DNA of 64,000 nt from a virus: the IMG/VR virus record IMGVR_UViG_3300042923_000601, positions 1 through 64,000 of that record. One strand, 5' to 3'. Position numbers and translations under genes: made by a program. Position 1 is the stretch's first letter; each line of letters opens with the position of its first letter. The notes beneath the pieces are model-generated. The model was given only the letters and a program-made list of their open reading frames with translations, made no database searches and was not told the origin of the DNA. Shown here piece by piece: positions 1,481 through 47,421 of the stretch.

Positions 1481-3235
1481 TTATACTTCGCCTTCAAAAT
1501 CAACTGCGTCAACAAAGATCGTATTCGCTGTAGCCAGCACGATCGCTGTATCAATTGCACGCTCAACGATGTTGATATCCGTTTGGATTGGATTAATAAC
1601 ACGGTTCGTGGAATCGCCGCGAAGGTTGATAGGGCCCGCGAATACTGGAACTGGCACGGTGTAACGGCTCATATCAATGCGGCCATTTTCATCAACCAGT
1701 TTCTTACCGGCATTCGTTACGATCAGGTCCATAAATTCAGTGCGGCTTATTGCAGTGCGGTTTTGAACTAAGCGATAGTATACCTTGAGATAAGCTTCCA
1801 TCAGGGAATCCAGCAACAAACTGAATACGCTGATCTGCTGTTCTTGAGGTTTACCAGTGAAGCCGTCTTTCGTTTGAGCCATGAGTGAGAACAACGATGC
1901 AAGGGTGTCCACATTACATCCCACTCCGTAACCAGAGCGAAGTGCAGACTGAACAGCCTTCAATCCGTCCTCAACAAGGCGAAGGTTAATTGATTTGCGT
2001 TGCACAGAATCGCCGCCTACATAGATGGTACGAACACCATTCGTGATAACCTGAAGGCGTTTTTTGAGGGCGTTCAATTCCACCCCAGCACGGGTAACAT
2101 CTTCCTGCGGAAGCAGGCCGGACGCTACCGACGTGACGATCTCATTGATTTTTTCTTGAAGCCATGACACGTGACGATCCAGCGAGTCGGATTGTTTGAA
2201 CCCGGACAGCGTGATCTTACGGTCTCTGATTATGACAGTGTTAGCATAACCTTTGGCCAACCCAGCGATGTTATTGGCATCAATAGTCGTGTTTTCTTCA
2301 TACCCAGCAGCGCCAGTCACCTTGACCAGGTCGTTATAGTCGTCGCTGTCTTGAATGCTATTAGCACGAGTGTATACGATTGCCATATTCAGGAAAATCT
2401 CAGGCTGACTTTGATTGAGCGCTTCAATGAAGCGCACTGCATTCTGGTTTACACCGCTGCAGAAGATCACAAGCGATTTATCAGCAGCCTTCAGTTTACG
2501 AGCGTACTCGTACAGGCTGTTTTCAATGTTTACTTTACCGTCGATAACCAAGATTTCAGCATTCCGCAAGAAACTTGCATTGACACCGTCCTGATTAGCA
2601 AAGGCAGAATGCATCAATTGCCCGCTGATGTTAAGGCCACTTGTGGATTGGATGTAGGTATTACTGCCCATGCTGATATCCAGCAGCACATTCTCATTAG
2701 CCAAATCGTTATTACCGTTGTACAGTTCAACCAGGACATCAGCCAGTTCGCTATTACCGTCAACTGAAGTGAATGCCAGGTCGAAAACATCGGCTGCTGT
2801 GAGTGCTGTTGCACCGTTCTCCAGATCATTAACCAACGCACCGATAATGGTAGATGCAGCGTCCTGAATCTGGGATGGGGTGTATTTAGCAAACAGTTCC
2901 TTGTTATTGCGCAGTTCATGGTATACCGCAGCGGTTACCAGAATTGCAGTTGTTGTACCGTCACCTACATGGTGCGCCTGATGACCAGCCACTTCGAATA
3001 CCATCTGGTATACGGCCTCAGCTGTAGCGTCATCAAATCGTATCATGTTCAAGTTTTCGTAGCCGTCTTTCGACGCATTGATTTCGTTTTTGATTTTGAA
3101 GATGTTATGCGTCCCGAACGGTCCGTATGTAGCGCCAACTGTATTTTCAATAATCGACATAACTTGAGCCACTGTTCCGTGGAACGTGGTTTTAGGCGAA
3201 ACGTTTTGTTTAAAATAGCGACGATCCATTGGCAT
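1481..3235 (-). CDS. GroEL-like chaperonin (584 aa)
   Basis: This is a group I-type chaperonin subunit expected to fold phage or host proteins in an ATP-driven ring. Visible family hallmarks are a GP.G turn and KDG (residues 38-58), the nucleotide-binding GDGTTTA at 91-97 (aspartate equivalent to GroEL D87), an apical GLNISGQLMHSAF segment matching GroEL's substrate-binding entry, VEDGL at 421-425 (equivalent to D398) and a GYGVG turn after it. It is longer than bacterial GroEL (about 548) and lacks the GGM tail. No GroES-like gene is seen in the window. The start at 3235 has AAGGGAG upstream. Phage chaperonins are known from EL, OBP and AR9. Confidence 0.9.
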   Translation of the reverse strand: MPMDRRYFKQNVSPKTTFHGTVAQVMSIIENTVGATYGPFGTHNIFKIKNEINASKDGYENLNMIRFDDATAEAVYQMVFEVAGHQAHHVGDGTTTAILVTAAVYHELRNNKELFAKYTPSQIQDAASTIIGALVNDLENGATALTAADVFDLAFTSVDGNSELADVLVELYNGNNDLANENVLLDISMGSNTYIQSTSGLNISGQLMHSAFANQDGVNASFLRNAEILVIDGKVNIENSLYEYARKLKAADKSLVIFCSGVNQNAVRFIEALNQSQPEIFLNMAIVYTRANSIQDSDDYNDLVKVTGAAGYEENTTIDANNIAGLAKGYANTVIIRDRKITLSGFKQSDSLDRHVSWLQEKINEIVTSVASGLLPQEDVTRAGVELNALKKRLQVITNGVRTIYVGGDSVQRKSINLRLVEDGLKAVQSALRSGYGVGCNVDTLASLFSLMAQTKDGFTGKPQEQQISVFSLLLDSLMEAYLKVYYRLVQNRTAISRTEFMDLIVTNAGKKLVDENGRIDMSRYTVPVPVFAGPINLRGDSTNRVINPIQTDINIVERAIDTAIVLATANTIFVDAVDFEGEV

Positions 3236-3970: not shown

Positions 3971-4813
3971 TTACTGCTGCATTGCTGCAATCAGGTCATT
4001 AACTTCGCTTTCAGAGGTGTGAATGATTTCAGCACTGTACTTATTGGCATCGCGGTTTCCAGCATAGCGATTAGCATTACCAGCATCGGCATTGCCCCAG
4101 CTTGTGGATTGACGACCGCCAGAGCGGTTACCATTAGACGATTGGGAGAAGTCAACGCCAAGGGACGATGCAAGCTGCACCAAGCGGCCTTCCCAGATTT
4201 TACGATCAAACATTCCTTCTTCTTTGGCGGCATGTACACGGCCATTAGTCATACCGATAGCGTAGTCTTCGAGCGCGTCAAGGAACAGCTCGAATTCAAC
4301 GTTCTCAGCATCATGAGTGTAGCTGCCTGTTGCTGGATTGTAGTTCTTGATGTAAATGTCCGGATTGAAAACGTGTACCAGATACTTGTCTGTCTTTTTC
4401 TGATCGTCAACATCCGTATAAATAACAACTGCGATCGAGTCCGGATTTACATCCTGTAGCGACGCTGTAAGCGTTTCTTTCAGTTCACGGACTTGGATGA
4501 CCTGAATCAAGCCATGCGACAGACCAATTGCGAATCCTTCGAATTCACCGGTCTGTTCCAACTTTTCGAGCGCCTTGCGGCCGCGTTTAGCAATCTTTTT
4601 GCAATCCTTGGAGCCAATATATGCCTCAATACCTGATTTGTAGTCGAATTGGACAGGATTAGTGGACGCGTCTTTTGGCAGTCGGATTGCAATCTCAGCA
4701 GTTTTACTGAAGTAACGAATAGCCAGAGCTGTACGAGTCCGATTATTCTTGCTCTGAAAGCCAAACGTGTTACTTGTCCGTTCCTTCGAATTCTCATTGT
4801 TTGTAAATGCCAT
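3971..4813 (-). CDS. Possible DNA-binding protein with low-complexity linker (280 aa)
   Basis: Residues 1-205 form a structured domain beginning FGFQSKNNRTRTALAIRY. It is followed by a Gly/Asn/Ser/Arg-rich linker (about 212-255) and a short acidic tip ESEVNDLIAAMQQ. A folded domain, floppy Gly/Asn linker and conserved acidic tail is the layout of single-stranded-DNA-binding proteins, but I do not recognise an OB-fold motif and the tip is not the bacterial DDDIPF type. Starts at 4813 after AAAAGGAGAATG. An AT-rich promoter box lies about 90 bases upstream. Confidence 0.7.
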   Translation of the reverse strand: MAFTNNENSKERTSNTFGFQSKNNRTRTALAIRYFSKTAEIAIRLPKDASTNPVQFDYKSGIEAYIGSKDCKKIAKRGRKALEKLEQTGEFEGFAIGLSHGLIQVIQVRELKETLTASLQDVNPDSIAVVIYTDVDDQKKTDKYLVHVFNPDIYIKNYNPATGSYTHDAENVEFELFLDALEDYAIGMTNGRVHAAKEEGMFDRKIWEGRLVQLASSLGVDFSQSSNGNRSGGRQSTSWGNADAGNANRYAGNRDANKYSAEIIHTSESEVNDLIAAMQQ

Positions 4814-4918: not shown

Positions 4919-4955
4919 TCAATTTTGAAGTAAAAAATGAAAGGAGGTGATAAAA

Positions 4956-5339
4956 ATGGGTGCTGACACGCAGCTATTTTCATGGGAATCGCTAATGACG
5001 ATCAGTGGAGCGTCTCTATTAGTCTTTCTCATCGTGCAATACACCAAGCAACCCCTTCGTAAGATTCTTAAGTATGTCCCTACGGACTTGTACACCGCCT
5101 TTGTATCTTTCGTCATTTTAGTCACTGCTAGTCTTGCAGAAGACTCTAATACATGGTATGAATGGAAGATGTACGTACTGTGCTTCTTCAATTCATTCTT
5201 AATTGCATCAACGTCAAGTCACATTTACGCAAAAACAAAGAACCCTCCGGTATCCCGGAAGGCCAAAGAAGCAAAAAAAGAAGAGTCTGCCACCGAGAAT
5301 ACATATACGGAAAGCATAGAAGACTCCTCAGGATCATAG
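4956..5339 (+). CDS. Holin, Hol44-like (127 aa)
   Basis: A small membrane protein with three hydrophobic stretches (about residues 11-30, 42-60 and 70-88) and a Lys/Glu-rich cytoplasmic tail. The pattern of a first helix ending in QYTKQPLRK, then PTDLYTAFVSF, then a third helix near FFNSFLIASTSSHIY fits the holin superfamily V (Hol44) layout. Such proteins open the membrane at lysis. ATG 4956 is chosen because AAGGAGGTGA sits five bases upstream; a GTG at 4947 lies inside that site. It stands alone on the plus strand with no endolysin beside it. Confidence 0.65.
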   Translation: MGADTQLFSWESLMTISGASLLVFLIVQYTKQPLRKILKYVPTDLYTAFVSFVILVTASLAEDSNTWYEWKMYVLCFFNSFLIASTSSHIYAKTKNPPVSRKAKEAKKEESATENTYTESIEDSSGS

Positions 5340-5352
5340 AGAAAATTGCCCT

Positions 5353-5377
5353 CCACCGATTAAGGTGGAGGGTTTTG
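5353..5377. terminator. Bidirectional terminator between holin and MgtC-like gene
   Basis: Stem CCCTCCACC / GGTGGAGGG. TTTT follows on plus. On minus, the shared tail TTTTCTCTATGATCC follows and overlaps the holin stop codon. Confidence 0.75.
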
Positions 5378-5400
5378 CCGGTCTACCCGCCCAGAAGTCG

Positions 5401-5859
5401 TTATTCATCGTCTTCATCATGGTGTCCATATGGGCGTAGGTTCTTAAATATTCGAGGTGCGTGGATACCGATAAACATCAATACTAACGTTATAACCGCT
5501 AAATCCAGTACACCATACCCAAGGGATAACCCGATGGCTGATGTGATCCAGATGTTAGCAGCAGTGGTTAATCCGCGTTTAATACTATCCTTATCCATCC
5601 AGATTACACCGGCTCCGATAAACCCTATACCACTTACAACTTGTGCTGCAAGTCGCATAGGGTCTCGGTACTGGTTTGTGTCTAAGGTGGATAGAATCAT
5701 GATAAGAGCAGAGCCAAGACATACGAGGGAATGAGTTCGTATACCTGCTGCTTTATTTTTCGTCGCTCGTTCGTACCCGATAATAACGCCAAATACTAAA
5801 GCTAAGAATAGTCTGAGGTATAAGTGCCAGCCAAGATCAGATAGTATTAAAATTGTCAT
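5401..5859 (-). CDS. MgtC/SapB-family membrane protein (152 aa)
   Basis: Clear MgtC signature: the first helix, then GYERATKNKAAGIRTHSLV, QVVSGIGFIGAGVI, and GLTTAANIWITSAIGL, followed by two more helices and an acidic HHDEDDE tail. In bacteria MgtC is an inner-membrane virulence factor that binds and inhibits F1Fo ATP synthase and acts during magnesium limitation; the soluble C-terminal regulatory domain of longer homologs is absent here. Start at 5859 follows CGGAGGAC. It converges with the holin gene. A role in altering host membrane energetics is inference. Confidence 0.92.
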   Translation of the reverse strand: MTILILSDLGWHLYLRLFLALVFGVIIGYERATKNKAAGIRTHSLVCLGSALIMILSTLDTNQYRDPMRLAAQVVSGIGFIGAGVIWMDKDSIKRGLTTAANIWITSAIGLSLGYGVLDLAVITLVLMFIGIHAPRIFKNLRPYGHHDEDDE

Positions 5860-5894
5860 AATAAGTCCTCCGATTTCGTTTCTTTAGGGATCAT

Positions 5895-5917
5895 AGAGAA
5901 AGCTACCCTCCGCCTAA
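5895..5917 (-). terminator. Hairpin overlapping gene end, with shared 14-base tail
   Basis: Stem CCTCCGCC / GGCGGAGG with the stop codon TAG of the 324-aa gene in or next to the loop. The tail TTTCTCTATGATCC follows on minus; a TATTTTTT run follows on plus. Confidence 0.65.
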
Positions 5918-6888
5918 ACGGCGGAGGTATTTTTTATCGCAACGGATTGTCGGAAATCGTCCGGCCCAAACCCGCACTCTGGGAAGCAGTATACTGCCAT
6001 ATCATAGACAGACTTGAATATTGTGCGAGTAGGTCTTAGCATATTAGCAGACTGCAATCCATTAAATGACATCACTCGACGGATGGCATTTCGAGATGAT
6101 ATACCCTTACGCTCATATACATAATATCGGATACACATCTTTGCGCGTTCCTTTGCGGCTAGAACATCATTTTCATTATATTCTGACATGGTCCAAAATG
6201 ACGATGGGAGCTTTCCTCGTTTCCCTTCTAAAAGCTCTTTGTATATTGGGATCACATCACCGGAGTGCAGCATGTCATTAACATCAGCTGTGATATCTCT
6301 ACCGGCTTTGAACATCGCAACATCGAACTGGTATTCAGGAAATACGAATGAAAACATTGAATACAGCGTATCCCGCCCTGGATAGAGTCTGCGATATGCT
6401 ACATATGCACCCCAAATCCTATTCTCTCGAAGGAATATTACTTTGTCTGGGATGTTGTGAATTCCGCGTAGGTCTAGGTTTAAACGATCATGGATAACAG
6501 CCCGTACGTTGTGTTTGATCGTTTCAGGTGTCCAGTAATCTCTAGGACATCGCGGCATGTCAAGAGGCTGGATATCTAAGTCATCCACGCAGTAAGTAAG
6601 CAGTTCGATCATCGTGTGGAATACTTTACTCACCTCACCTGACAATCCAGATGCCAGTTTAATCTGCCGTAGTTGAGAGATGTCCAGCGCTGCAATTTCA
6701 GCTTTTGTCATTGGATTATACACAAATACATACCACCGGAAACAGATGCGATATCTCATTTTAGAATTCACATCATCCGGTGACCAGTATCCTTTGGGGA
6801 ACTGTTTCCGTGCTCCACTTAACACATCTCTGTACACTTTAATAATTTCTTCTTCACGATTGTCAAACTTGTTTGGGTCAACCATCAT
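5914..6888 (-). CDS. Protein with three internal repeats (324 aa)
   Basis: Three copies of a roughly 100-residue unit are visible. Each has an aromatic PKGYW / PRDYW / PSSFW-type motif, a basic helix (MRYRICFRWYVF, IKHNVRAVIHDRL, AKMCIRYYVYE), and later a segment like VFHTMIELLTYC / LYSMFSFVFPEY / IFKSVYDMAVYCFPE. The layout recalls DUF4046-like Firmicutes proteins, but I am not certain. The basic helices could bind nucleic acid. Start at 6888 is set by CGGAGGTA of the conserved leader. The last codons lie in the terminator stem. Confidence 0.75.
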   Translation of the reverse strand: MMVDPNKFDNREEEIIKVYRDVLSGARKQFPKGYWSPDDVNSKMRYRICFRWYVFVYNPMTKAEIAALDISQLRQIKLASGLSGEVSKVFHTMIELLTYCVDDLDIQPLDMPRCPRDYWTPETIKHNVRAVIHDRLNLDLRGIHNIPDKVIFLRENRIWGAYVAYRRLYPGRDTLYSMFSFVFPEYQFDVAMFKAGRDITADVNDMLHSGDVIPIYKELLEGKRGKLPSSFWTMSEYNENDVLAAKERAKMCIRYYVYERKGISSRNAIRRVMSFNGLQSANMLRPTRTIFKSVYDMAVYCFPECGFGPDDFRQSVAIKNTSAV

Positions 6889-6940
6889 GCATACCTCCGT
6901 TATAGTAGGAATCGTTGTTCATATTTATGATATGTAGTTG
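6889..6940 (-). promoter_or_regulatory. Promoter and conserved leader (no clear stem)
   Basis: Minus strand: box ACATATCATAAATATG, a short spacer, then CCTACTATAACGGAGGTA with the ribosome binding site. Confidence 0.65.
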
Positions 6941-6965
6941 TAACATTGGCTTTTTACATGTAAAA

Positions 6966-6990
6966 AGAGAACCCCATTAAGGGTTCTCTA
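6966..6990 (-). terminator. Terminator overlapping gene end
   Basis: AGAGAACCC / GGGGTTCTCT stem plus TTTT on minus. The TAA stop of the 353-aa gene is in the loop. Confidence 0.75.
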
Positions 6991-8038
6991 CAGGTTCATA
7001 ACGCTGGAGCATCAGTTGACTACGAATGTGTCTAGGCTCATGATTCATCACCCTCGATTGATCAGTAAACCATGAGTGTGGAAGACCAAGATATTCCATG
7101 GAGCCTTCGATATAAATAATCCCTGATGGTGCGTTCTTACTAAGAAGACTTTCAAGTTCATCATCCGTCAGGTCATAGAATGTATCATCCCATTTTAAGG
7201 AGTTGCGAATGAAGTTCTCCGCGTCCCATGCGTCGGAACGGTTTTCGGAGTATGCTGCCGCTGACGTGATAACCCTAAACGAATAACTACCGTCGTTAGC
7301 TGCACGTGCCTTGAACGATCCCATGTTCTTACATGATAACTGAGACAACCAGAACACGTTTTTATTGAACTCGACATCATTGTAGAAATGAACCGGGAAG
7401 TGGAGCTTGTCGGAGTACTCAAGCATCTCTGTGTTATTGCGTGGGATAAATGGAGACGCGATTTTATTCCCTAGTGTCTTATTATACTTATAGCGCCATG
7501 GATGTTCAGGGTCTGACCCGTTTTGAAGGGAGGGTTGCATATATGCAGGTAGATATCGCATCGTGTCTTCCAGTAACTCAAGCTTATGATTTGTATTTGC
7601 GCGATTCATGTCCATTAGACATATACCGCTTCGAACTGAGCCGAATAAATGAACCCATGACAATAATGCCAATGAAGACGTCACTCGACGCTGCTGACGA
7701 ACAGACACCAAATATTGATCCTGATTCTTCAGGGCGACATAGAAACTGGCCAGGTTCATTCGATTAAGCTCGAACCGACTCGGTCCTCCACAGTCAGGCA
7801 CGTATACACATTCCCGGAAATAGTACCATGGATTGATCGTACACTCCAGCATAATGCGCTGCCGCATTTCAGGTGACAGATTTGGATCGTGCGGGTCAAC
7901 ACCTTTCAACTTCCGATCGTACAATCTCAGGTGGAAATCAGAATTTTTGATCCCCAATTGTTGCTTAAGCAGATAAGCCAATTTAAGGAACGACGTGTTA
8001 GTAGTGGTATAATCTATGATGTAAGGTTTGCTTGGCAT
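6977..8038 (-). CDS. Degenerate terminase large-subunit ATPase paralog (353 aa)
   Basis: The protein lines up by eye over nearly its whole length with the ATPase half of the terminase at the right end of this window. NPWYYFRE matches NYWYFLRE; YLVSVRQQRRVTSS (around 113-122) sits where the terminase has YLELPRQFGKTTG; VHFYNDVEF replaces the Walker B strand; VITSAAA replaces CITSTPG; and the closing YIEGSMEYLGLPHSWFT matches YIKFSFLQLGKTMEWYT. The Walker A Gly-Lys-Thr is gone and there is no nuclease domain, so it is probably catalytically dead. Start ATG 8038 is chosen for AAAGGAGG upstream; the frame extends 21 codons further. Confidence 0.75.
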   Translation of the reverse strand: MPSKPYIIDYTTTNTSFLKLAYLLKQQLGIKNSDFHLRLYDRKLKGVDPHDPNLSPEMRQRIMLECTINPWYYFRECVYVPDCGGPSRFELNRMNLASFYVALKNQDQYLVSVRQQRRVTSSLALLSWVHLFGSVRSGICLMDMNRANTNHKLELLEDTMRYLPAYMQPSLQNGSDPEHPWRYKYNKTLGNKIASPFIPRNNTEMLEYSDKLHFPVHFYNDVEFNKNVFWLSQLSCKNMGSFKARAANDGSYSFRVITSAAAYSENRSDAWDAENFIRNSLKWDDTFYDLTDDELESLLSKNAPSGIIYIEGSMEYLGLPHSWFTDQSRVMNHEPRHIRSQLMLQRYEPVENP

Positions 8039-8111
8039 GGTAAAACCTCCTTTGTAAATAGGGCGATAATCGCTCATTTCTACCATGTTTACCCAATACA
8101 CTTACATACAA

Positions 8112-8142
8112 AAAAAGAAGACGGGCTCCCGTCTTCTTTTAA
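8112..8142 (-). terminator. Rho-independent terminator
   Basis: AAAAGAAGACGGG / CCGTCTTCTTTT stem with a T run on minus, after the gene ending at 8157. Confidence 0.8.
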
Positions 8143-8156
8143 GTATTAGCCGCAAA

Positions 8157-8390
8157 TTACCCTATAATTCGTACATGATCAGACCGATATGGGAATCCCA
8201 CAGCATCCATTAGTCGAACGAACCCTGAGGTTACAAGGATGCGCCGTTTAGAGTCGTCATCCATCTTTCCCCATAATTTCTGAAGAAGGTTTCGACGGGA
8301 AGTACTTTCCTTTGTAAAAACACTCGGTTCTCTGACCAGTACTGACACAAATAACTGGTAAATCTCATCTTGATCAAATTCTTCAGCCAT
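8157..8390 (-). CDS. Small hypothetical protein (77 aa)
   Basis: Acidic N-terminus MAEEFDQDEIYQLF, basic middle STSRRNLLQKLWGKM. ATG 8390 has GAAGGGTGG upstream; a GTG two codons earlier is possible. It is the last gene of a three-gene run (61, 119 and 77 aa) with gaps of a few bases. No family recognised. Confidence 0.65.
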   Translation of the reverse strand: MAEEFDQDEIYQLFVSVLVREPSVFTKESTSRRNLLQKLWGKMDDDSKRRILVTSGFVRLMDAVGFPYRSDHVRIIG

Positions 8391-8411
8391 AAACACGACC
8401 CACCCTTCTCG

Positions 8412-8771
8412 TTATCCCATTATCATGGGTAATTCAGCTATCGCATAGGCGTCATGGTCGAACATGAGCCACTGGACGCCTGTTGCTTGAGCAAATCGGT
8501 ATACGCGCATTAGGTCTTCTGGTAAACCAATTGGATCAGGGACATCAGGGTCGTCCAGTACGAGTATGGTGAATCCATACTCTGACTTTGCATAGACAAT
8601 CAACCCGGATACCCCGTCTTCCACTTCTTGACGTAACCATTCATACGTGTCGTCCGATATGTGAATTGATGATATAACCATCATTCGCTGAATGACGTTT
8701 TCGTGATCAACCGTCACAATCGGTGTGGATATACGGTGTTCCTTATAAATCTTGATCACGGGTTTCATCAT
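8412..8771 (-). CDS. Hypothetical protein (119 aa)
   Basis: Begins MMKPVIKIYKEHR at ATG 8771 (second ATG at 8768), preceded by GGAAAGAG, and overlaps the end of the upstream gene by about 29 bases in another frame, suggesting coupled translation. The frame continues upstream to a TTG at 8807, which is a poor start. Alternating strands and acidic loops; no recognisable motif. Confidence 0.65.
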   Translation of the reverse strand: MMKPVIKIYKEHRISTPIVTVDHENVIQRMMVISSIHISDDTYEWLRQEVEDGVSGLIVYAKSEYGFTILVLDDPDVPDPIGLPEDLMRVYRFAQATGVQWLMFDHDAYAIAELPMIMG

Positions 8772-8928
8772 CTCTTTCCGACGCGTTAGGGAAATGGGTT
8801 TCCCCAAACTCGCTTAACGCGTCGAGGAATTCTGTCATCTGACCGGCTCTTTCCTCAGGTGTAGTGTTAGCTAACACCGTATTCCGCCGGTCAACAAGCT
8901 TCTGATACCGTTCTTCTGGTGTCGACAT
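8743..8928 (-). CDS. Small acidic protein (61 aa)
   Basis: MSTPEERYQKLVDRR start with AAGGAGGGG upstream. Mostly helical, rich in Glu/Asp/Arg, ends RDDETRDQDL. First gene of the run with the 119- and 77-aa genes. No family recognised. Confidence 0.65.
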   Translation of the reverse strand: MSTPEERYQKLVDRRNTVLANTTPEERAGQMTEFLDALSEFGETHFPNASERDDETRDQDL

Positions 8929-8945
8929 TGATTAACCCCTCCTTA

Positions 8946-9662
8946 TTAGCAGTTATCTTTAACCCATTGAATCACTTCTGGAAGTGGATTTTCAATCTCT
9001 CCTATTGCAGATGGGTTGGTTTGGACAATCATCATTTGGATTTCCAGGATGTTGCTCTCCAGTGCCTTCTCACCAGCGGGCGTTTGCGTAGCGAGATATC
9101 GCAATACTTCTAGGCATGGGTTTTGAATGTCTTCTAGATATTCCGATTCCTCACTGAGTAGCGACAGCTGTATATCATAATCCAAGTCCTTGATGGAGCC
9201 GACTATGCTCCACGCCGCGTTTTTAATTGCAAGCTGTTGCAATTCCTTAGATGGGTTTTTAACGTTTTCAATATCAGGTGGGCTTTTTTCAATTAGAACT
9301 CTTAAAACTTCAGGGGATGGATCAGGAACGTACGACAGAAGGGAGTTTTCATCCATGGATAACTCAATATATCGTATCTGTACTCGGTCGCTAGGATTTT
9401 TGATATACGCAAACACATGGTGTGGCCAACCCATTGTTCTTTCCATTGCTTCTATTAAGAAGTCATCGCTCAGATGCTCAAGCTTTTCAATGATATATCC
9501 CTCATACGGGTATTCACTGATCGATTTAAGGACAGCTTTGTGTTGAGCAGCCTCGGTTTGATTCTTAACCAATCGAAAATTCTCAACATTCTCGTCAATT
9601 ACCGCAAACTGTTCTTCTTCTGTAAGTATACCGTCACGTTTAATAATTTCAATAGCATTCAT
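8946..9662 (-). CDS. Helical repeat protein (238 aa), paralog of next gene
   Basis: About 35-residue units repeat, each with an acidic or NP turn followed by hydrophobic helices: IENVKNPSKELQQLAIK, LEDIQNPCLEVLRYLA, IGEIENPLPEVIQWV. This is the style of DUF4116-like helical repeats, usually binding platforms. ATG 9662 follows GGAGGTAA, and an AT-rich promoter box lies about 35 bases upstream. The last 80 residues closely resemble the neighbouring 150-aa protein. Confidence 0.75.
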   Translation of the reverse strand: MNAIEIIKRDGILTEEEQFAVIDENVENFRLVKNQTEAAQHKAVLKSISEYPYEGYIIEKLEHLSDDFLIEAMERTMGWPHHVFAYIKNPSDRVQIRYIELSMDENSLLSYVPDPSPEVLRVLIEKSPPDIENVKNPSKELQQLAIKNAAWSIVGSIKDLDYDIQLSLLSEESEYLEDIQNPCLEVLRYLATQTPAGEKALESNILEIQMMIVQTNPSAIGEIENPLPEVIQWVKDNC

Positions 9663-9695
9663 TATATTACCTCCAATTTAGTGAGTTTATTACAC

Positions 9696-9711
9696 AGATA
9701 TAATATGTAAT
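9696..9711 (-). promoter_or_regulatory. Phage promoter-like box
   Basis: Minus strand TTACATATTATATCTG upstream of the 238-aa gene. Confidence 0.45.
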
Positions 9712-9739
9712 TCATCATAGGGTTGACCTTTACATCAAA

Positions 9740-9768
9740 AAAAACAGAGCCATCGACGGGCCCTGTTT
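9740..9768 (-). terminator. Rho-independent terminator
   Basis: AAACAGGGCC / GGCTCTGTTT stem followed by a T run on minus. Confidence 0.75.
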
Positions 9769-9775
9769 TATGAGG

Positions 9776-10228
9776 TTAACAATTGCTGATAAGCCATTTG
9801 ATCACTTCCGGATGTGGATTTTCAAAGAGTCCGATCACTGCTGGGTCAGTCTGAACCGCGAGTAGCTGAATCTCAGGGGTCAAGTTATCCTGTGACGCAA
9901 TTAACATCGGGTCGATTTGAGCAAGATACATCTGCACCTCAGGGCACATATTTGTAATATACGGCAGGTGCTCAGGATGATTGGCAAGAATGTCTAACTG
10001 AATGTCCTTATGTAAATCCTTGATGCAATCAATTGCCGTAGGGTCAATCTTATACACCAGTTGCTGTAATTCCTTGGACGGATTCTTGATCTTCAAGATG
10101 TCAGATAAGCTGGTTCCAATACGACTGCGGACAACGTCTGGTGATGTATATTGTATGCATCCAGACACAATACGACCCCTCTTGTTTACAGGTATTCCGT
10201 TATGATCATTAACTTCAACTGCACTCAC
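9776..10228 (-). CDS. Helical repeat protein (150 aa)
   Basis: Same repeat as the 238-aa neighbour (ILKIKNPSKELQQLV, ENPHPEVIKWLISNC), with an N-terminus of its own. Starts at GTG 10228, nine bases after GGAGG. A tandem duplicate that has diverged; it has its own promoter box and terminator, so the copies are separately expressed. Function unknown. Confidence 0.75.
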   Translation of the reverse strand: MSAVEVNDHNGIPVNKRGRIVSGCIQYTSPDVVRSRIGTSLSDILKIKNPSKELQQLVYKIDPTAIDCIKDLHKDIQLDILANHPEHLPYITNMCPEVQMYLAQIDPMLIASQDNLTPEIQLLAVQTDPAVIGLFENPHPEVIKWLISNC

Positions 10229-10264
10229 CTTGGCATTCCTCCGTTATCGTTGGTTTATCTACCT

Positions 10265-10280
10265 ATCTGTAATATATACC
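10265..10280 (-). promoter_or_regulatory. Phage promoter-like box with leader remnant
   Basis: Minus strand GGTATATATTACAG, then a leader ending CGATAACGGAGG, related to the conserved leader end. Confidence 0.5.
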
Positions 10281-10304
10281 TGAAACTATGATCGACATAG
10301 AAAA

Positions 10305-10326
10305 GACAGAGCCCGAAGGCTCTGTC
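10305..10326 (-). terminator. Rho-independent terminator
   Basis: AGACAGAGCC with TTCGG loop and GGCTCTGTCT, then TTTTCT on minus. Confidence 0.8.
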
Positions 10327-10333
10327 TAATCGT

Positions 10334-10534
10334 TCATTTCTTCATACGATCTTTGAGATCGCGGCAGGTGAACTCGTCACAAGTATACACATCCATACCT
10401 TCGTTATAGTAGTTAGGACCAAGTACATCATTGATCAACTGGCTAAAATGCTTTCGAAGGTTGGCGTACTGCAATAACTGTATGCCAGTATCGGATGGTG
10501 GGCTGGGTTTGTAATTCCCGATTCGTATACCCAT
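10334..10534 (-). CDS. Small hypothetical protein (66 aa)
   Basis: MGIRIGNYKPSPPSD start preceded by TAGGAGGGATACC. Basic C-terminus CRDLKDRMKK and two cysteines (TCDEFTC). It lies 21 bases after the DNA polymerase stop and is probably co-transcribed with it. No family recognised. Confidence 0.7.
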   Translation of the reverse strand: MGIRIGNYKPSPPSDTGIQLLQYANLRKHFSQLINDVLGPNYYNEGMDVYTCDEFTCRDLKDRMKK

Positions 10535-10555: not shown

Positions 10556-13500
10556 CTACCCAATATTTACGATATTGGACAGGTAAGGATCAGATTTCTT
10601 ACGATACACTGGTCGTACACCGATCTCTTCAAGAATAGGTGTAACCAGTGACATGTTCTTATTGACCATAGTCTCTACATCCATAATCGCAAGTATCCAA
10701 TCGGGAACTTCTTCCTCAAGAGGAATGGCGATCTGGGTAATACCTGTACGGAGCTTAGGGTCTTTTAACAGCTCAACCATCCGTTCAAATTCTTCACGGT
10801 AGTCAAGGGCGATTGGGGCTAAATCCTTGGCCGACTTAATAGAAACCTTAACGGTATGAATACTATTCGGCATAGTGATATCATTATCTGGGTATAGTGC
10901 ATTCCAGACGTAGGTCGCCTTGAAGGAACCAGACTTCATTGGGTCGTCATAGGAGTCAATGGTATTCACCTTAGACTCTGTCAGAAAGTCCTTGTTACCA
11001 GACTTCACTTCACCTCTGATCTTATCCTCAAGCTTGAGCATCTTACGGAGTGCCTCCTGAATATCAACCTTATCGGTTACGATATGCTCAAAGAGGGTAT
11101 CTTCGATGTGCTTACGGACATATTTCGGCCCAAAGGACACCTTCTTAAAGTCAAAGCCTTTAATGTCGCGCTTTGGTGTTTTCATGTATTCACCTTCACG
11201 CAGGATGATTGAGTTAAGGTAACGTTTCTTGCCCGATGCCAGCAACAAGGCTGTCATGCCAAACTCGTTTTTCATCTGGTAGCTACCGAACGGATGCTTC
11301 TCAGCATTGGTATCGACTTTGAACTTGTCAAGTGCACGAGTGATCAACTCTGTCATGATGTAAGCCACTGTATTCATGGCTTTCAGTCTACGACCTTCAT
11401 CGATCTTATTTCCTTTCGATTTAGTATAGAGCACTGTATTATGAACCGGCTCCATGTACTGAGTGAAGATTTTCATCAGATCATGGATGGTGATGATATT
11501 ACTGTCGGTATCAATGACAACGACATTGTTACGACGGATATTAATCAGGCGGTCAACCCGTCCATAGTATGGATAGTTGTACTGGCAATATTCCAGAATA
11601 ATATTCGTCAATTTCTTAAGGTACTTCTCACCTTCCTGTGGTGGTTTATTTGGATTCAGGAAGAGAGGGGCATTGATGGAGAACTTGTTGATCATCTCAT
11701 GGATCAGTGGGTTCTCTTGGATAAATGCGTTCAGGTTGGACTTATAATATAAGCGATTAAGCGCCGTTTGAGGTACATGTTCCAGTAAAGCATCGAGGAT
11801 ACCTGCATCAAAGTTCTTGATCGCAGTACATTTACGCAGCAGGCGTTCACGCACATCCGACTTGGTTTTATTTGATGCCAGAATCTCACCGTCAATATAA
11901 GATACTTTCTCACTGATAATATTCTCACAATAGTGAAGAAGCTCATCCGTGTCATAGAACTGAATGGTGTCACTCAGGAAGTCCTCAAAGGTAGTCATGG
12001 CCAAAGAGATAAAGGTCTGACCCTTAGAGGTTGTAGACTGTGCGACATGGTACGAATAGAAGGTGGACGATCTCGTTCCTCCAACCCCGTACGCTGAGTT
12101 TACGTATGTCTTTACACGGTTCTGCTTCAGGTTGTACATCTTAGCATTTTCAGTATCACCGACTTTATCATACTCGATTTCGATCTTCTTCAGAACCTTA
12201 CGCTTCTTTAGGAGATTGTCAGTGATGATCAGACCCGGGCTAATTGGCCCTTCTTCGTGACGTTTGAAGAATGTACCAGATTCAGTCAGAATCGGACGCA
12301 CTTCAAGAATCCAGTCTACGATATCAAGCAGGGTCGTATTGTATTCGATATTCTCATAGCTATTAAACAGGATGCAGTCAGTGTTCTTCACATCACGCTT
12401 ATACACCCGTTTAAGGAAGGAATCGAAGTGCGACTCGCTCTCTGGGTGAATCATGCGCATAACTTTCTTCATCTTAAATGACCAGAGATCATAGAATCCA
12501 CCAAAGGATTTCTTCTTGGTAACGATCTTCGGTTCTTTGATATTCCGGTACAGAATGAACTCTTTGAGGTATTCATCTGTACGACGGAGTCCAAACCATT
12601 TAATACCCACCTTGATATAGTCACGAGTTTCGTAATCATCCACGAACTCACCACCACGAAGGTGAGGGTTAACGCTATACTCAAGCGGAGATACCCGGTC
12701 AAGGATAATCAGGCGACCATGCTGAGCAGAGTCAGACATGTTGTTCACCAGCTTAATTGATGGGTACATTGCCGTAGCATCAAGGTCAATAAGGTCAAGG
12801 AAGATGCGATTGCTCCGTTCAGTACCGAACAGCGTCGCACCCACATTGTTGATACCCGTAGGGTCACCAACAAGTGCACCTTTAAGAGTTTCTTCAAATC
12901 CACTTTCAGAGACCACATCCTCACCAGCATCTTCACCGAAGTCAAGGTAATTGGCATTGAGGTTGTTTCTCATGACTTGGCCGTTCTCAAAATGTCCAAC
13001 GTTCCACAAGTTCTTCAAGCTGACCGTTTGCCGGTTGGCTTTATCGACTTGAGTACCGGAGTCGTAACCTTTGAGGAATACGTCGTCGATATCTTCAACC
13101 TTGCGCTCAATCCCGACTTGAGACCACACGTCCACCATCGAGTAGAGAACAAAGTTTTCGTATTCTTCAAGTGCAGCGTTGATGACCGTTACACCTTTTC
13201 TGTCAAACTTACGTTTACCGAGCTTGAGTTCGATTGATGCAACGTTATCGAGGCCGTTAGAGCCAAAGTCTTGACCGCCTTTACGTCTGGCAGCATAATT
13301 CAACATTTGGTCTGTATACTTGGTGTAGGATAAGCAGTTAAAGGAGTCGCCACGGTTCTTAAAGTCACTGATAAACCGCTCGTCCACCTTATAGTACATT
13401 TCCGTTTTACCGAAGTCTGGGTGACAGAACAACGCTTTTGATGGGAGTCCCAACATCGTTGCTCTCTTGTCGATATATGGAATATCGTAGCTCATATTCC

Positions 13501-14353
13501 AGATACCGGTGAAGTCAGGCTTAAAGGCATGCTGAAGCTTAAAGATCGTCATGATCATCTCAGCTTCATCGTCATACATCATGACGTGGTAATCAGCCTT
13601 ACCGTACTTTTCATCAAATTCATCATGCAATCGCTCCATGAAGCGTGGTAGGTTACGTTCAAACTCCGCCTGCTGCTTATACCGTTTGTGATCACGGAGT
13701 AACAGGGTAAATACTTGCGGGAGTTTGACATTAGAACCCGGTGGAATATAGTCATAAATCAGCGTAACCGCTGAAATCGGGCATCTACCTGTCTCGTGAT
13801 CATACTTTGACCGACCGTAGATGTCGGTCTCGATATCGAGGTAGGACTTTGTCAGTGTGTACTTCTTAGGGTCGTAATGAAGTGCGGCTGTTGTGTACAC
13901 ATAGTCTTCGATGCCGCAGTCAGAGAAGTAGGCATGACGCCATTTGTGTACTTCTTTCCGACCATTCCACTTCCCAATCTCCTTAGCATAGTCAATCGTT
14001 TGCTTGACCTTCTTATCTTCTTCGGAGTATAGGTGATTGGAGAGTAATTTATATAGGTACCGTTCTCTCTCCTTATAGGTCACGGTATGTTTATCGAGCA
14101 GCTCGAACGGTACGGCCTCACGAGGCGTCTTCCAGTCGTGCATATGCTCTTCTTTTGTAACGTATATATCAGTCTGTGGGTTCTTGATGATTTGGAGCTT
14201 CTTTTCTCCAGTGTCGAAGTCTCGATAGACGATGAATAGTTCATCATCGGAATAGCTTCCGTCCGGCATTTTCTTTGACCGGCTGTACTGCACATTCAGG
14301 ATTAGGACATTTGCTCCTTTTTCTACCCCATGTAGTAGTGGTCTTGGGTACAT
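10556..14353 (-). CDS. Family B DNA polymerase (1265 aa)
   Basis: Replicative polymerase with proofreading. The exonuclease domain has YLDIETD at 171-177 and a later NMSYDIPYI segment. Polymerase motif A is DLDATAMYPS (about 525), motif B KTYVNSAYG (about 750) and motif C VVIDTDSN (about 945), all with catalytic aspartates present, so it should be active. It is longer than T4 gp43 (898), with extra sequence before the exonuclease domain and in the thumb; no intron or intein break is evident. ATG 14353 has GGGAGG nine bases upstream. It diverges from the plus-strand lysine-rich gene, sharing a roughly 120-base intergenic region. Confidence 0.97.
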   Translation of the reverse strand: MYPRPLLHGVEKGANVLILNVQYSRSKKMPDGSYSDDELFIVYRDFDTGEKKLQIIKNPQTDIYVTKEEHMHDWKTPREAVPFELLDKHTVTYKERERYLYKLLSNHLYSEEDKKVKQTIDYAKEIGKWNGRKEVHKWRHAYFSDCGIEDYVYTTAALHYDPKKYTLTKSYLDIETDIYGRSKYDHETGRCPISAVTLIYDYIPPGSNVKLPQVFTLLLRDHKRYKQQAEFERNLPRFMERLHDEFDEKYGKADYHVMMYDDEAEMIMTIFKLQHAFKPDFTGIWNMSYDIPYIDKRATMLGLPSKALFCHPDFGKTEMYYKVDERFISDFKNRGDSFNCLSYTKYTDQMLNYAARRKGGQDFGSNGLDNVASIELKLGKRKFDRKGVTVINAALEEYENFVLYSMVDVWSQVGIERKVEDIDDVFLKGYDSGTQVDKANRQTVSLKNLWNVGHFENGQVMRNNLNANYLDFGEDAGEDVVSESGFEETLKGALVGDPTGINNVGATLFGTERSNRIFLDLIDLDATAMYPSIKLVNNMSDSAQHGRLIILDRVSPLEYSVNPHLRGGEFVDDYETRDYIKVGIKWFGLRRTDEYLKEFILYRNIKEPKIVTKKKSFGGFYDLWSFKMKKVMRMIHPESESHFDSFLKRVYKRDVKNTDCILFNSYENIEYNTTLLDIVDWILEVRPILTESGTFFKRHEEGPISPGLIITDNLLKKRKVLKKIEIEYDKVGDTENAKMYNLKQNRVKTYVNSAYGVGGTRSSTFYSYHVAQSTTSKGQTFISLAMTTFEDFLSDTIQFYDTDELLHYCENIISEKVSYIDGEILASNKTKSDVRERLLRKCTAIKNFDAGILDALLEHVPQTALNRLYYKSNLNAFIQENPLIHEMINKFSINAPLFLNPNKPPQEGEKYLKKLTNIILEYCQYNYPYYGRVDRLINIRRNNVVVIDTDSNIITIHDLMKIFTQYMEPVHNTVLYTKSKGNKIDEGRRLKAMNTVAYIMTELITRALDKFKVDTNAEKHPFGSYQMKNEFGMTALLLASGKKRYLNSIILREGEYMKTPKRDIKGFDFKKVSFGPKYVRKHIEDTLFEHIVTDKVDIQEALRKMLKLEDKIRGEVKSGNKDFLTESKVNTIDSYDDPMKSGSFKATYVWNALYPDNDITMPNSIHTVKVSIKSAKDLAPIALDYREEFERMVELLKDPKLRTGITQIAIPLEEEVPDWILAIMDVETMVNKNMSLVTPILEEIGVRPVYRKKSDPYLSNIVNIG

Positions 14354-44014: not shown

Positions 44015-45199
44015 CTACTCGTTGATGAATAGGAGACTGTAGCTTGAAGACTTTGTCTTCTTGTAGGTCAGTGGATTCTTAAGCTGTTGTTTAACCTTCT
44101 CAAACATCAGTCCTGCGATAACAGAACCGCTTAGGATTGCAGCGTCATTCATGCTGACCATCCGGTAGTTAGAAGGTTCCTGTTTAACCGTCCAGTCTGG
44201 GATATCAAGCTCATTATTCTTATCCCGGATCAGGTTACGGATAATCATTTCAATGTGTACCGAAGGCGTCTGGATTCCCCCTTGACGGAAGAGCTTGTTC
44301 AGCACCTTGATGAATTCGTTATAGTCAGTTACACCATCCAGCATCTTCTTACCCTTCTGGATAAACTTCGTAAGCTGCTTGATTGGTTTAGTCAACTCGT
44401 TATTACTAACGCGCAGGAAGAAGAACGGCTCAGTAGCATCAATGTGCTTCAGTTCGATCAGGCATTCCTCTTCATCCGAGTCGATGCTGAAGAACTGACT
44501 GTCACGAAGAAGTCCATACATCTGCTTACTGAGGTATAGGTGCATGCCGGTTTCTTCCCGGATTTCAATCATCTCACCGGTTTTCTTGTCACGGAGCGTA
44601 ACCTTCTCCATGTAATAGTTGTCATATTTATCATAGGCTTCTTCCGACTCCATCTTGATGTCTTGCCGTAACATGACAATCACATACTTGGACTCTTTGA
44701 TCTCAGGGTTGAGCTTAAAGAGCCAGCCGTTTGTGTTGACCAAGATGTTGTAGGTGTCAATGAGCACAACCTTGGCGCTGTTTGTAGCAAGCGCATGTCG
44801 AGCAGATAGCCCCAGCTGCGTCTTTGCTTCATTTGTGTCGATACCTGCGAATTTACCTGCATGCATACCATAGTTTACGTTATAGAGTAAGCCGTAGCAT
44901 ACCTTGCAGATTTTACCGTTCTTCACACCGCAAGTAGCCGGTGATCGGAGTTCCACATTCTTACCAATAAGATGTGTATCCTTGGTGCTGATAACCTTGA
45001 ATTTCTTAGGGCCGACTTTCATAAACCGGCCGTCATAGCTTGTCAGATCAGCCTGCGAGTCAATACGTGTAGAGTACAGATTCACAGTGTCGCAGGAATA
45101 GTGTGGGTCTTCATTAAGCGTCACGTTCTCCGTTGCGAAGTTAATGTGGCGACCAAAGTACCCAGCTTCTGCTACACCCATCTGCATGATACTTGCCTT
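44015..45199 (-). CDS. RNA polymerase beta-prime C-terminal subunit, exon 2
   Basis: Encodes the zinc-binding and trigger-loop side of a multisubunit RNA polymerase. YSCDT followed by SPATCGVKNGKICKVCYG gives four cysteines matching the second zinc site of bacterial RpoC (C814, C888, C895, C898). NEAKTQLGLSARHA matches RpoC's GEPGTQLTMRTFH at the trigger loop, and VHIEMIIRNLIR matches the C-terminal VHIE..VRQML. By itself the frame starts at ATG 45226 with no convincing start, because its first nine codons are intron. Exon 2 supplies about 394 residues. The catalytic DFDGD half is not here. Confidence 0.88.
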   Translation of the reverse strand, partial: KASIMQMGVAEAGYFGRHINFATENVTLNEDPHYSCDTVNLYSTRIDSQADLTSYDGRFMKVGPKKFKVISTKDTHLIGKNVELRSPATCGVKNGKICKVCYGLLYNVNYGMHAGKFAGIDTNEAKTQLGLSARHALATNSAKVVLIDTYNILVNTNGWLFKLNPEIKESKYVIVMLRQDIKMESEEAYDKYDNYYMEKVTLRDKKTGEMIEIREETGMHLYLSKQMYGLLRDSQFFSIDSDEEECLIELKHIDATEPFFFLRVSNNELTKPIKQLTKFIQKGKKMLDGVTDYNEFIKVLNKLFRQGGIQTPSVHIEMIIRNLIRDKNNELDIPDWTVKQEPSNYRMVSMNDAAILSGSVIAGLMFEKVKQQLKNPLTYKKTKSSSYSLLFINE

Positions 45200-46551
45200 C
45201 CTACCTGGTACCTTCACATAGTTCATTACACTATGCAGTTCGCACGGTTTATACGCCGTTGAACTTCTCCGGTTTTTCTCCGGATGTCGAGACTATATCT
45301 TGTCCATAGGGAGACATAAGTCTTCCCCTTAGGACCCTGCCATTTCCATTTAAGAGCATCTCACTCACCCATTTGGGCCGTACGCCTGTTGCCGAATTGC
45401 ACGGCTACTCACTGTTGTCACAGCTTTCGGCTAGTCGTTGAACGTGCTACTATCATATCTTTGCAGATTCACGGAGTGGTTAGTCCCGTTAGTCTACTCC
45501 CCTTAAACTTTTATACAATGAATATATTTCTTCTTTGGTGAAGTATTGGTCTGATATACCTGGCTGAACTCGTTTTCGGTATACATTTTCCACAAAACCT
45601 ATATCAATAGCTAGTCGGCCTGCGATATAGTTATGAGGTCTTCCGGCTACCAAATATCTACAAACTGCATGAACTGTCTCGTCGTCATACTTTCGCTGAC
45701 GTTTGCGGTTTGGTTTGATATTGTATTGATCAGATATTGATTTGTACTTCTTACCAATTGCTATCTCAACCAATAGTGAGAAAAATCGTTTGTTGTCTTT
45801 AACGTTAGATGTGCCAATTATAGCGAGTCCAATCTGACCATAATCCCAATTATCAACTTCCATCATCTTACAGACCTGGTGTACTTGGTCATATGTTAAC
45901 TGGGATTTGATCAAACCATACTCTATGGCATGCATAGTGTTTCTATGAAACGATGCCCATTCCAGATTCTTGTAGTAGTTGTACGTTGAATCACCGCTTA
46001 GATGATTCACTATTGGTAAGTTATCGGGGTTAGGGATAAATGCTAGTGCAACAAGCCGACTGACCATGTAATATGACATGCCATTCGTAGTCCCAACCTC
46101 GCTCAATTTAACAACTACCTTAGGATAACCGGATTTATCAACTTTAGTTTGGAATTTTCTCTCTATACCACGGTCTTTAGAGTATAACCGACCATGGTTT
46201 GATATTAAATAACGTCCACTTATTGCATTGCCGTCTTTGGCGTCATATACCAGAGGACGCCATTCTTCTCTGTCTTTCGGTATCAATCTTAACATGATGT
46301 AATGTCATCCTCTCGTATTAACCTCCATCTCCAACTAGATTCATGATCATAGGGGGATATGATAATACTTCGCTGCTGATAGCACATTTGTTGCAACCCT
46401 TAGACTTACTATCGTCAATAGGTTAGACCTCACCTTGTTTCTGGTTTCCCTCCTGCATCCCGACCAAGGGATTAGGTGTGAGGATTAAGCGCGTCCCAGC
46501 AATTAGACAGGTTATTCAACTGAGCGTTTCCACCCAGAGGGGGCAGTTCTT
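45200..46551 (-). ncRNA. Group I self-splicing intron (1352 nt)
   Basis: The intron interrupts the beta-prime gene between DAVG and KASIMQ. Core elements on minus: R-type GTTCAACGACTA (45432-45443) and S-type ACAAGATATAGTCT (45290-45303), whose GACTA and TAGTC form P7. The 5' exon ends GGGT, which pairs with GCCC just inside the intron and leaves the expected U-G wobble at the splice site; the intron ends in G. This places splice points after 46552 and before 45199 and keeps the frame. An HNH gene lies in a peripheral loop. Exact ends are inferred. Confidence 0.85.
45489..46295 (-). CDS. HNH homing endonuclease with NUMOD4 (268 aa)
   Basis: Intron-encoded endonuclease that should cut intronless copies of the beta-prime gene and drive intron spread. 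The N-terminal NUMOD4 block (EWRPLVYDAKDG...RYLISNHGRLYS) is followed by the HNH core PIVNHLSGDSTYNYYKNLEW and HRNTMHAIEYGL (about 95-130), then DNA-binding helices, including a helix-turn-helix-like YNIKPNRKRQRKYDDETVH. ATG 46295 has AGAGGATG upstream. Its A/T-rich composition differs from the surrounding exons, in keeping with mobility. Confidence 0.9.
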   Translation of the reverse strand: MLRLIPKDREEWRPLVYDAKDGNAISGRYLISNHGRLYSKDRGIERKFQTKVDKSGYPKVVVKLSEVGTTNGMSYYMVSRLVALAFIPNPDNLPIVNHLSGDSTYNYYKNLEWASFHRNTMHAIEYGLIKSQLTYDQVHQVCKMMEVDNWDYGQIGLAIIGTSNVKDNKRFFSLLVEIAIGKKYKSISDQYNIKPNRKRQRKYDDETVHAVCRYLVAGRPHNYIAGRLAIDIGFVENVYRKRVQPGISDQYFTKEEIYSLYKSLRGVD

Positions 46552-47421
46552 ACCCACTGCATCTACATACGCTGACTGAGGAGTGTTCAAACCATCACCC
46601 ATAAGGCTGCTGTTTGTTACATTCGGAATGGTGTCTCCGGACAGTGTCGGTTTAAATCCAACGTTAACGAAGACCTCTTGAGCTTGATGTTTGTTGATTA
46701 CACCTGCACGAATCATTGGTTTGAGCGGGTTGTTATCATCCATTTCATTCAGCAAGATATCAAAGAGCCGATCTGTTTGTCCCCGTAGGAATTGTTCGGC
46801 TTCGTCCACCCGGAATTTATCTGGGTCATCCTCAATATGCGTATTAAGAATATCGTTCACTTCTTTATTGCGACGAGCCATCTTAAGCATATCAAAGATT
46901 GAAATGGAGTTACCGAACAGTGGCCCCATTGCGGTTGCCAGCTTATTCATGAAGACTTGTGTATCGTGATAGATTTCAGATAACCCAGCTGCTGTAAACT
47001 GATCTTTATGGTTATCGGCAAATCGGTCAAAGAACTTCTTATACTCCGCATTCGTAAAGTGTTTCGGTGCAAAGATATCATCCTCTGTAACCGCAATACC
47101 GGTTACGATGTATGGCCGCCACATAATCATATTGAAGACGAAATGCACAAACGGCATTTCGAGTAGTGGACCATCACTGTCAAGCTTATATGCCATTTTA
47201 AGTTGTCCCAAATCTTCCATTGAGATGGACATGTCTTTGCGAGTTTCGGTGATGAGCATATTTACATAAGACTCGTACTCGGAGACCTCTGCAAACTCAT
47301 TGATTACCGGACACAGCTTCATTCCGTTATCTGCTGCGCCATATGCACGTAGTCTACCTTCGATATCCGACAAGCTGTAGTTCCAGCCTGCTAATACCGA
47401 CCCCTTTTTCTTCTTACCCAT
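46552..47421 (-). CDS. RNA polymerase beta-prime C-terminal subunit, exon 1
   Basis: Encodes 290 residues before the intron. The end, GFKPTLSGDTIPNVTNSSLMGDGLNTPQ in outline, matches the RpoC stretch GFKP.PSGEVIP...FRDGLS before the bridge helix. Without splicing the frame reads 11 more codons and stops at 46516. ATG 47421 follows GGGAGGTAACAG. Joined to exon 2 the subunit is about 684 residues, the size expected for the C-terminal beta-prime polypeptide of phiKZ/AR9-type polymerases. The other subunits must lie outside the window. Confidence 0.85.

Follow-up and report, generated by a model that had tools for sequence, protein, structure and literature searches.

A large-terminase paralog without catalytic residues in large phages, a possible mimic of the packaging motor

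The locus and its relation to the large terminase

The window, by which the whole analysed stretch of 64,000 nucleotides is meant, belongs to a phage record of 246,689 bp (G000) and includes two genes related to the large terminase, TerL (Table 1). One is the gene of TerL itself (64195..62024), the 5' end of which lies just beyond the window. The other, here called pseudo-TerL, encodes a shorter protein. For this gene a longer open reading frame (ORF) from GTG 8101 was set aside in favour of ATG 8038, which has a ribosome binding site (RBS); the ORF with its start and stop agrees with the coordinates noted earlier.

Table 1. Features of the pseudo-TerL locus and the TerL gene in the window.
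Feature	Position	Strand	Description
Pseudo-TerL gene, 353 aa	6977..8038	-	Paralog of the TerL ATPase domain that lacks the catalytic residues and the nuclease domain
N-terminal module, ca. residues 1-112	7704..8038	-	Extends to just before Walker A; best preserved part
Degenerate Walker A	7676..7705 (approximate)	-	VRQQRRVTSS (TerL: LPRQFGKTTG); RQ kept
RBS before ATG 8038	8043..8053 (approximate)	-	AAAGGAGG
Intrinsic terminator of pseudo-TerL gene	6948..6990	-	GAGAACC cttaat GGGGTTCTC TTTTT; overlaps stop codon; fold z-score -3.75
Intrinsic terminator of upstream gene	8105..8145	-	Divides that gene from pseudo-TerL gene; fold z-score -4.71
TerL gene, 723 aa	62024..64000 in window	-	Walker A and B intact, RNase H nuclease domain present; runs on to 64195
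Lineage-specific insert with pseudo-TerL gene	4919..10534		Between conserved 280-aa gene (3971-4813) and family B DNA polymerase gene (10556-14353)

Within G000 pseudo-TerL matched exactly two places, itself and TerL at 64183..63107. BLASTP gave 26% identity to the window part of TerL over 295 columns (E=2e-22), and the genome search 31% identity to full-length TerL over residues 19-367 (E=8.7e-37). The protein matched also the PHROG terminase-large-subunit profile (E=8e-39). The original prediction that it aligns over its whole length with the ATPase half of TerL is confirmed. Nothing was found for the protein in Pfam or PDB sequence searches, and ordinary annotation could therefore miss it.

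The gene stems from a duplication of the ATPase half of a large terminase of the phiKZ/AR9 type and has since diverged. The jumbo-phage TerLs of the phiKZ/AR9/Goe21 type (phrog_2, phrog_32359; ca. 25-31% identity) share with it the fold, the N-terminal module, the RQ of Walker A and many structural residues. They differ from it in length (ca. 725 against ca. 350 aa) and in having the Walker A Lys, the Walker B Asp-Glu, the GRG arginine motif and the nuclease domain, all absent from pseudo-TerL.

Distribution

Equivalents were first looked for in the whole records of six close relatives, and the search was then extended to more than 100 other related records. Two were found in related uncultivated phages, one in G002 (345 aa, 214152-215171) and one in G003 (366 aa, directly after TerL). 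A third is present in the cultivated Vibrio phage vB_pir03 (QNI21149.1, 321 aa, 188001-188966), where it is annotated only as a hypothetical protein. No pseudo-TerL was found in G005 (207 kb) or G006 (216 kb), two close relatives whose records may be incomplete, and in the more than 100 other related records only TerL was found. A tblastn search of 50,697 phage records matched 296 of them at 297 places, in essence a single TerL per record, vB_pir03 being the record with two places among those listed. Single-protein scans of viral contigs with the window protein or query P0007 found no close orthologs, and a TerL-profile scan of genome contigs found none. The relatives in G002, G003 and vB_pir03 have the same loss as the window protein, and no orthologs with intact Walker motifs were encountered in the ortholog check.

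The vB_pir03 protein resembles the window protein in being a paralog of the ATPase half of TerL, without nuclease domain and accompanied by an intact TerL (QNI21002.1). Its Walker A reads PRQRGRS (Lys replaced by Arg) and its Walker B DD. It differs in having kept the Ser/Thr and Asp of the site, in having mostly lost the C-terminal subdomain and in its separate place in the tree. vB_pir03 has also a third, more decayed TerL paralog (QNI21202.1, 276 aa; L380:946-1776), and a 6,417-aa protein with dozens of DUF285 repeats is encoded just before its pseudo-TerL gene (L414:8605-27858).

Some candidates were rejected. A 386-aa terminase-like BFVD entry, seemingly from the deposit of Campylobacter phage CP20, did not lead to a second pseudo-TerL there; only one TerL was found in CP20, with an intein-like insertion after 'RQC'. 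The split TerLs of AR9, PBS1, G019, G039, G061 and G062 were not accepted as pseudo-TerLs.

Loss of the catalytic site and the nuclease domain

In pseudo-TerL the Lys of Walker A (PRQFGKTTG in TerL) is replaced by Arg and the Thr by Val, and the pattern RQxxK[ST] is gone. Walker B has changed from WFDE to FYND, losing Asp-Glu, and the GRG motif before it from GRGL to SDKL. The C-terminal RNase H-like nuclease domain is absent, as the ORF stops at the ATPase/nuclease linker and is followed by the terminator. The destruction of both Walker motifs and the lack of the nuclease had thus been read correctly at the outset. The coupling motif (T[ST]TPGD-like), likewise described as destroyed, has lost most of its residues (ITSTPGD to ITSAAAY), while its 'TS' survives.

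In place of the arginine of the GRG motif the window protein has D, the G003 protein T and the vB_pir03 protein S; the G002 protein has kept R. In other TerLs an arginine is given to the neighbouring subunits, and the position of this finger varies between TerLs (PMC5727402). From its place, the GRG arginine is a candidate trans-arginine finger, and a trans-acting arginine has probably been lost in three of the four copies.

The loss was compared between seven catalytic columns, each with a conservation of 90% or more across the TerL set, and 30 other conserved columns. The window protein has kept 1/7 catalytic and 24/30 other columns (Fisher p=0.002), the G002 protein 1/7 and 22/30 (p=0.007), and the G003 protein 0/7 and 26/30 (p=3e-5). 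In the vB_pir03 protein, with 4/7 and 19/30, catalytic loss is not in statistical excess (p=1.0), yet its Lys and Glu are gone. The replacement of the Walker A Lys by Arg, a broken Walker B and the lack of the nuclease are common to all four pseudo-TerLs. Every TerL examined has kept the Lys and DE, and no complete TerL examined was without K[ST]. Among 181 unique TerL-like open frames, which did not yet include the later found vB_pir03 protein, Walker A was covered without Lys only in the three pseudo-TerLs of the clade. Full-length TerLs without 'GK' were rejected as further dead motors; they read RQxxK[ST] with DE intact and are thus of the active type.

The N-terminal module is the best preserved part, 53% of its positions in the window protein matching a clade TerL, and the catalytic core the least preserved. 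The core/N identity ratio was 0.44-0.65 in the pseudo-TerLs against 0.58-0.97 in the active TerLs, a skew beyond that of nearly all active ones. The window protein no longer has the residues that bind and hydrolyse ATP, nor the GRG arginine motif or any of the nuclease domain, but it has kept the fold, the N-terminal module and most of the structural residues.

Predicted fold and the N-terminal module

AlphaFold2 modelled pseudo-TerL with a mean pLDDT of 91.8 and a pTM of 0.91. The input alignment comprised 44 sequences, taken from the window and from retrieved loci, and since most of its rows are active TerLs the model leans to the TerL fold; sequence homology gives independent support. In Foldseek the top 28 PDB matches were all TerL ATPase domains or full TerLs (T4 gp17, 2o0h, E=1.3e-9), and the best BFVD matches were large terminases (query TM ca. 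0.90). The G002 copy has the same predicted fold (pLDDT 88.7; 2o0h, E=7e-10). The structure prediction thus returned a TerL ATPase fold and not an unrelated one. The best solved-structure matches, the ATPase domains of T4 gp17 (PDB 2o0h), P74-26 and D6E (E 1e-9 to 1e-5), differ from pseudo-TerL in being catalytically active motors, and have only 9-12% identity to it.

The N-terminal module (VDPxDPxLTxEQxxxIxxExxxNPxYFxxxI) occurs alone in other, otherwise unrelated large-phage proteins, those of G100 (158 aa), G094 (416 aa) and G088 (153 aa), with E 3e-13 to 4e-6. This would fit an exapted adaptor, in which the module binds something outside packaging and the dead ATPase core serves as no more than a scaffold. 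Such an adaptor would not need the full ATPase fold, which is kept in the G000, G002 and G003 proteins down to the last subdomain, and this explanation appears improbable. The loci with the module only are L381:1335-1811(-), L382:1544-2794(-) and L383:1339-1800(-), and the G100 protein adjoins a replicative-helicase-like gene.

Maintenance and expression

The GC content of the copies follows that of their host records (44.5, 33.2 and 26.4% against 44.6, 35.1 and 30.4%). In the right frame their synonymous codon scores fall within the ordinary range or exceed it; the other frames score lower. The codon usage, the RBS and the gene's own terminator indicate a real gene. The frames are intact in three genomes (345-366 codons) in spite of ca. 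30% mutual identity, and the gene has therefore been long maintained.

Gene duplication is common in phages and split TerLs exist in the group (AR9, PBS1, G061, G062), both of which would suit a functionless gene, be it a duplicate in decay (a pseudogene) or a TerL that is misassembled or split by an intron. In the split TerLs, too, part of the ATPase half has an ORF of its own, but their parts jointly make up one TerL with intact Walker A, whereas G000, as also G002 and G003, has an intact full-length TerL elsewhere. A half of an intron-split TerL was ruled out by this complete TerL and by the lack of a nuclease ORF beside the pseudo-TerL gene. Considering also the intact frames, the typical codon usage, the own expression signals and the concentration of the loss on the catalytic columns, absence of function is highly improbable.

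An early-type promoter motif, TATATATTATA, was found in the window and the rest of G000 at a tight spacing of ca. 48 bases before start codons, its ten-base core having 28 exact matches in G000. It resembles the early promoter of phiKZ. With one mismatch the motif marks two genes upstream of pseudo-TerL (8946-9662 and 9776-10228). When sought in G000 it was not found before the pseudo-TerL gene itself, and no late promoter motif emerged. The signals lean towards a non-early expression of pseudo-TerL. The G002 variant of the motif ends ATTATT. Elsewhere in the window (44015-47421, -) an RNA polymerase beta-prime-like gene is divided into two ORFs (46516-47421 and 44015-45226), both of which match one ORF in G002. 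The 268-aa ORF between them (45489-46295) has a weak NUMOD4 match below the Pfam cutoff and is a possible homing endonuclease; an Rfam intron was not found at this split gene.

The timing bears on the possibility of an immune decoy, a mimic that would occupy TerL-sensing defences (STAND proteins of the Avs1-3 type) without triggering them and so shield the real TerL. Avs1-Avs4 recognise the large terminase, the portal or another phage protein (PMC12931631), and the fold matches included the solved structure of an Avs3-bound PhiV-1 terminase (8dgc_E, E=4e-3 and 8e-3). Sporadic, fast-diverging and repeatedly arising accessory genes are also typical of arms races. However, a decoy should precede TerL, and no early motif was found before the gene, which is cut off by a terminator from the early genes upstream; furthermore, Avs binding normally activates Avs. 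A decoy is thus an unlikely explanation, if the least unlikely of the alternatives.

Genomic position and origin

The junction that in G000 holds the insert is only 550-740 bp long in G002, G005 and G006. Two neighbours within the insert (5914-6888 and 8412-8807, -) contain domains of unknown function, DUF4046 and DUF5983. A GroEL/Cpn60-like chaperonin gene of the window (1481-3235, -) is conserved in G002, G005 and G006, and in G002 the pseudo-TerL copy lies ca. 8.5 kb past the chaperonin gene of that genome. G002 has also a cluster of paralogous proteins (216757-222149; L153) with a common N-terminal motif, 'KLRLIQEGxSIxEINxG', which is perhaps a targeting or propeptide signal. The G003 copy has TerL on one side and the conserved next gene on the other, and its stop directly adjoins the ATG of the latter.

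In the tree the G003 copy was sister to the clade TerLs (100/98), the G000 and G002 copies grouped together elsewhere (99/82), and the vB_pir03 copy was placed apart. The AU test rejected the G000, G002 and G003 copies as one clade (p=0.015), the branches being long. When G002 was removed, the G000 copy was by path nearest to the Goe21-type TerLs and not to the clade TerLs, again with long branches. At least two origins of pseudo-TerLs are favoured by these placements, and not proved because the branches are very long. The pseudo-motor of the original prediction had been called conserved. This holds in that the fold is kept, the catalysis is lost and the relatives share the loss; it does not hold for the distribution, which is sporadic; the locus changes from genome to genome, and more than one origin is probable.

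The placements could also speak for a poison against competitors, that is, a dominant-negative TerL that would block the packaging of co-infecting related phages and spare the own, more divergent TerL. Co-assembly with the own TerL would be poor at 31% identity, the G000 and G002 copies place closer to TerLs of the Goe21 type than to the TerL of their own phage, and the gene sits in a variable insert. Against this, the G003 copy groups with the TerLs of its own clade, and the long branches make the G000 and G002 placements unsafe. A poison seems improbable.

Proposed function and implications

Pseudo-TerL is a pseudoenzyme of a known family. TerL has as partners the portal, other TerL subunits and DNA (PMC7617512), and Avs proteins in immunity (PMC12931631); its subunits touch the portal clip depending on nucleotide state (PMC7617512). 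A mimic without ATP hydrolysis and nuclease would act by binding only. We tentatively propose, at a probability of roughly 45%, that pseudo-TerL is an ATPase-dead motor mimic that docks on a TerL partner and modulates packaging. It would take a surface that is normally TerL's, either the portal clip of a prohead or a position within the TerL ring. Docking would go via the retained N-terminal module and the C-terminal subdomain, the module being assumed to face the portal or the ring. With no ATP hydrolysis, and in three of four cases no arginine for the neighbour, the motor might be held or delayed. Pseudo-TerL could then serve, for example, as a checkpoint or cap that prevents packaging by immature heads or determines the moment at which TerL engages. 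The roles first suggested for it, regulating packaging, capping the portal or acting as a structural partner, are plausible.

The homology and fold, the selective catalytic loss, the change of Lys to Arg in all four proteins, the well-kept N-terminal module and the long maintenance argue for this motor mimic, and the location of the G003 copy, with its stop on the ATG of the next gene, suggests a link to packaging. The location of the window gene, in an accessory insert next to genes with early-type promoter motifs and outside the packaging operon, argues against it, as does the vB_pir03 protein with its lack of an excess in catalytic loss, and the sporadic presence disfavours an essential packaging role. 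We infer that a packaging regulator or cap is to be favoured over an immune decoy, a competitor poison and an unrelated adaptor.

TerL serves as a universal marker and as the archetype of a viral motor. No description of a terminase pseudo-ATPase, of a paralog, or of a second or inactive copy was found in the open-access papers searched. There is about an even chance that large phages repeatedly evolve dead copies of the packaging ATPase, a viral class of pseudo-motors acting as regulators, decoys or weapons at the terminase-portal step. Because one member is present in the cultivated phage vB_pir03, the idea is testable now. The dead copies would provide a natural tool to part docking from ATP hydrolysis, and they would call for caution in phage classification based on TerL. 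They may add a new level to the control of packaging, or to the contest between phages and immunity over TerL.
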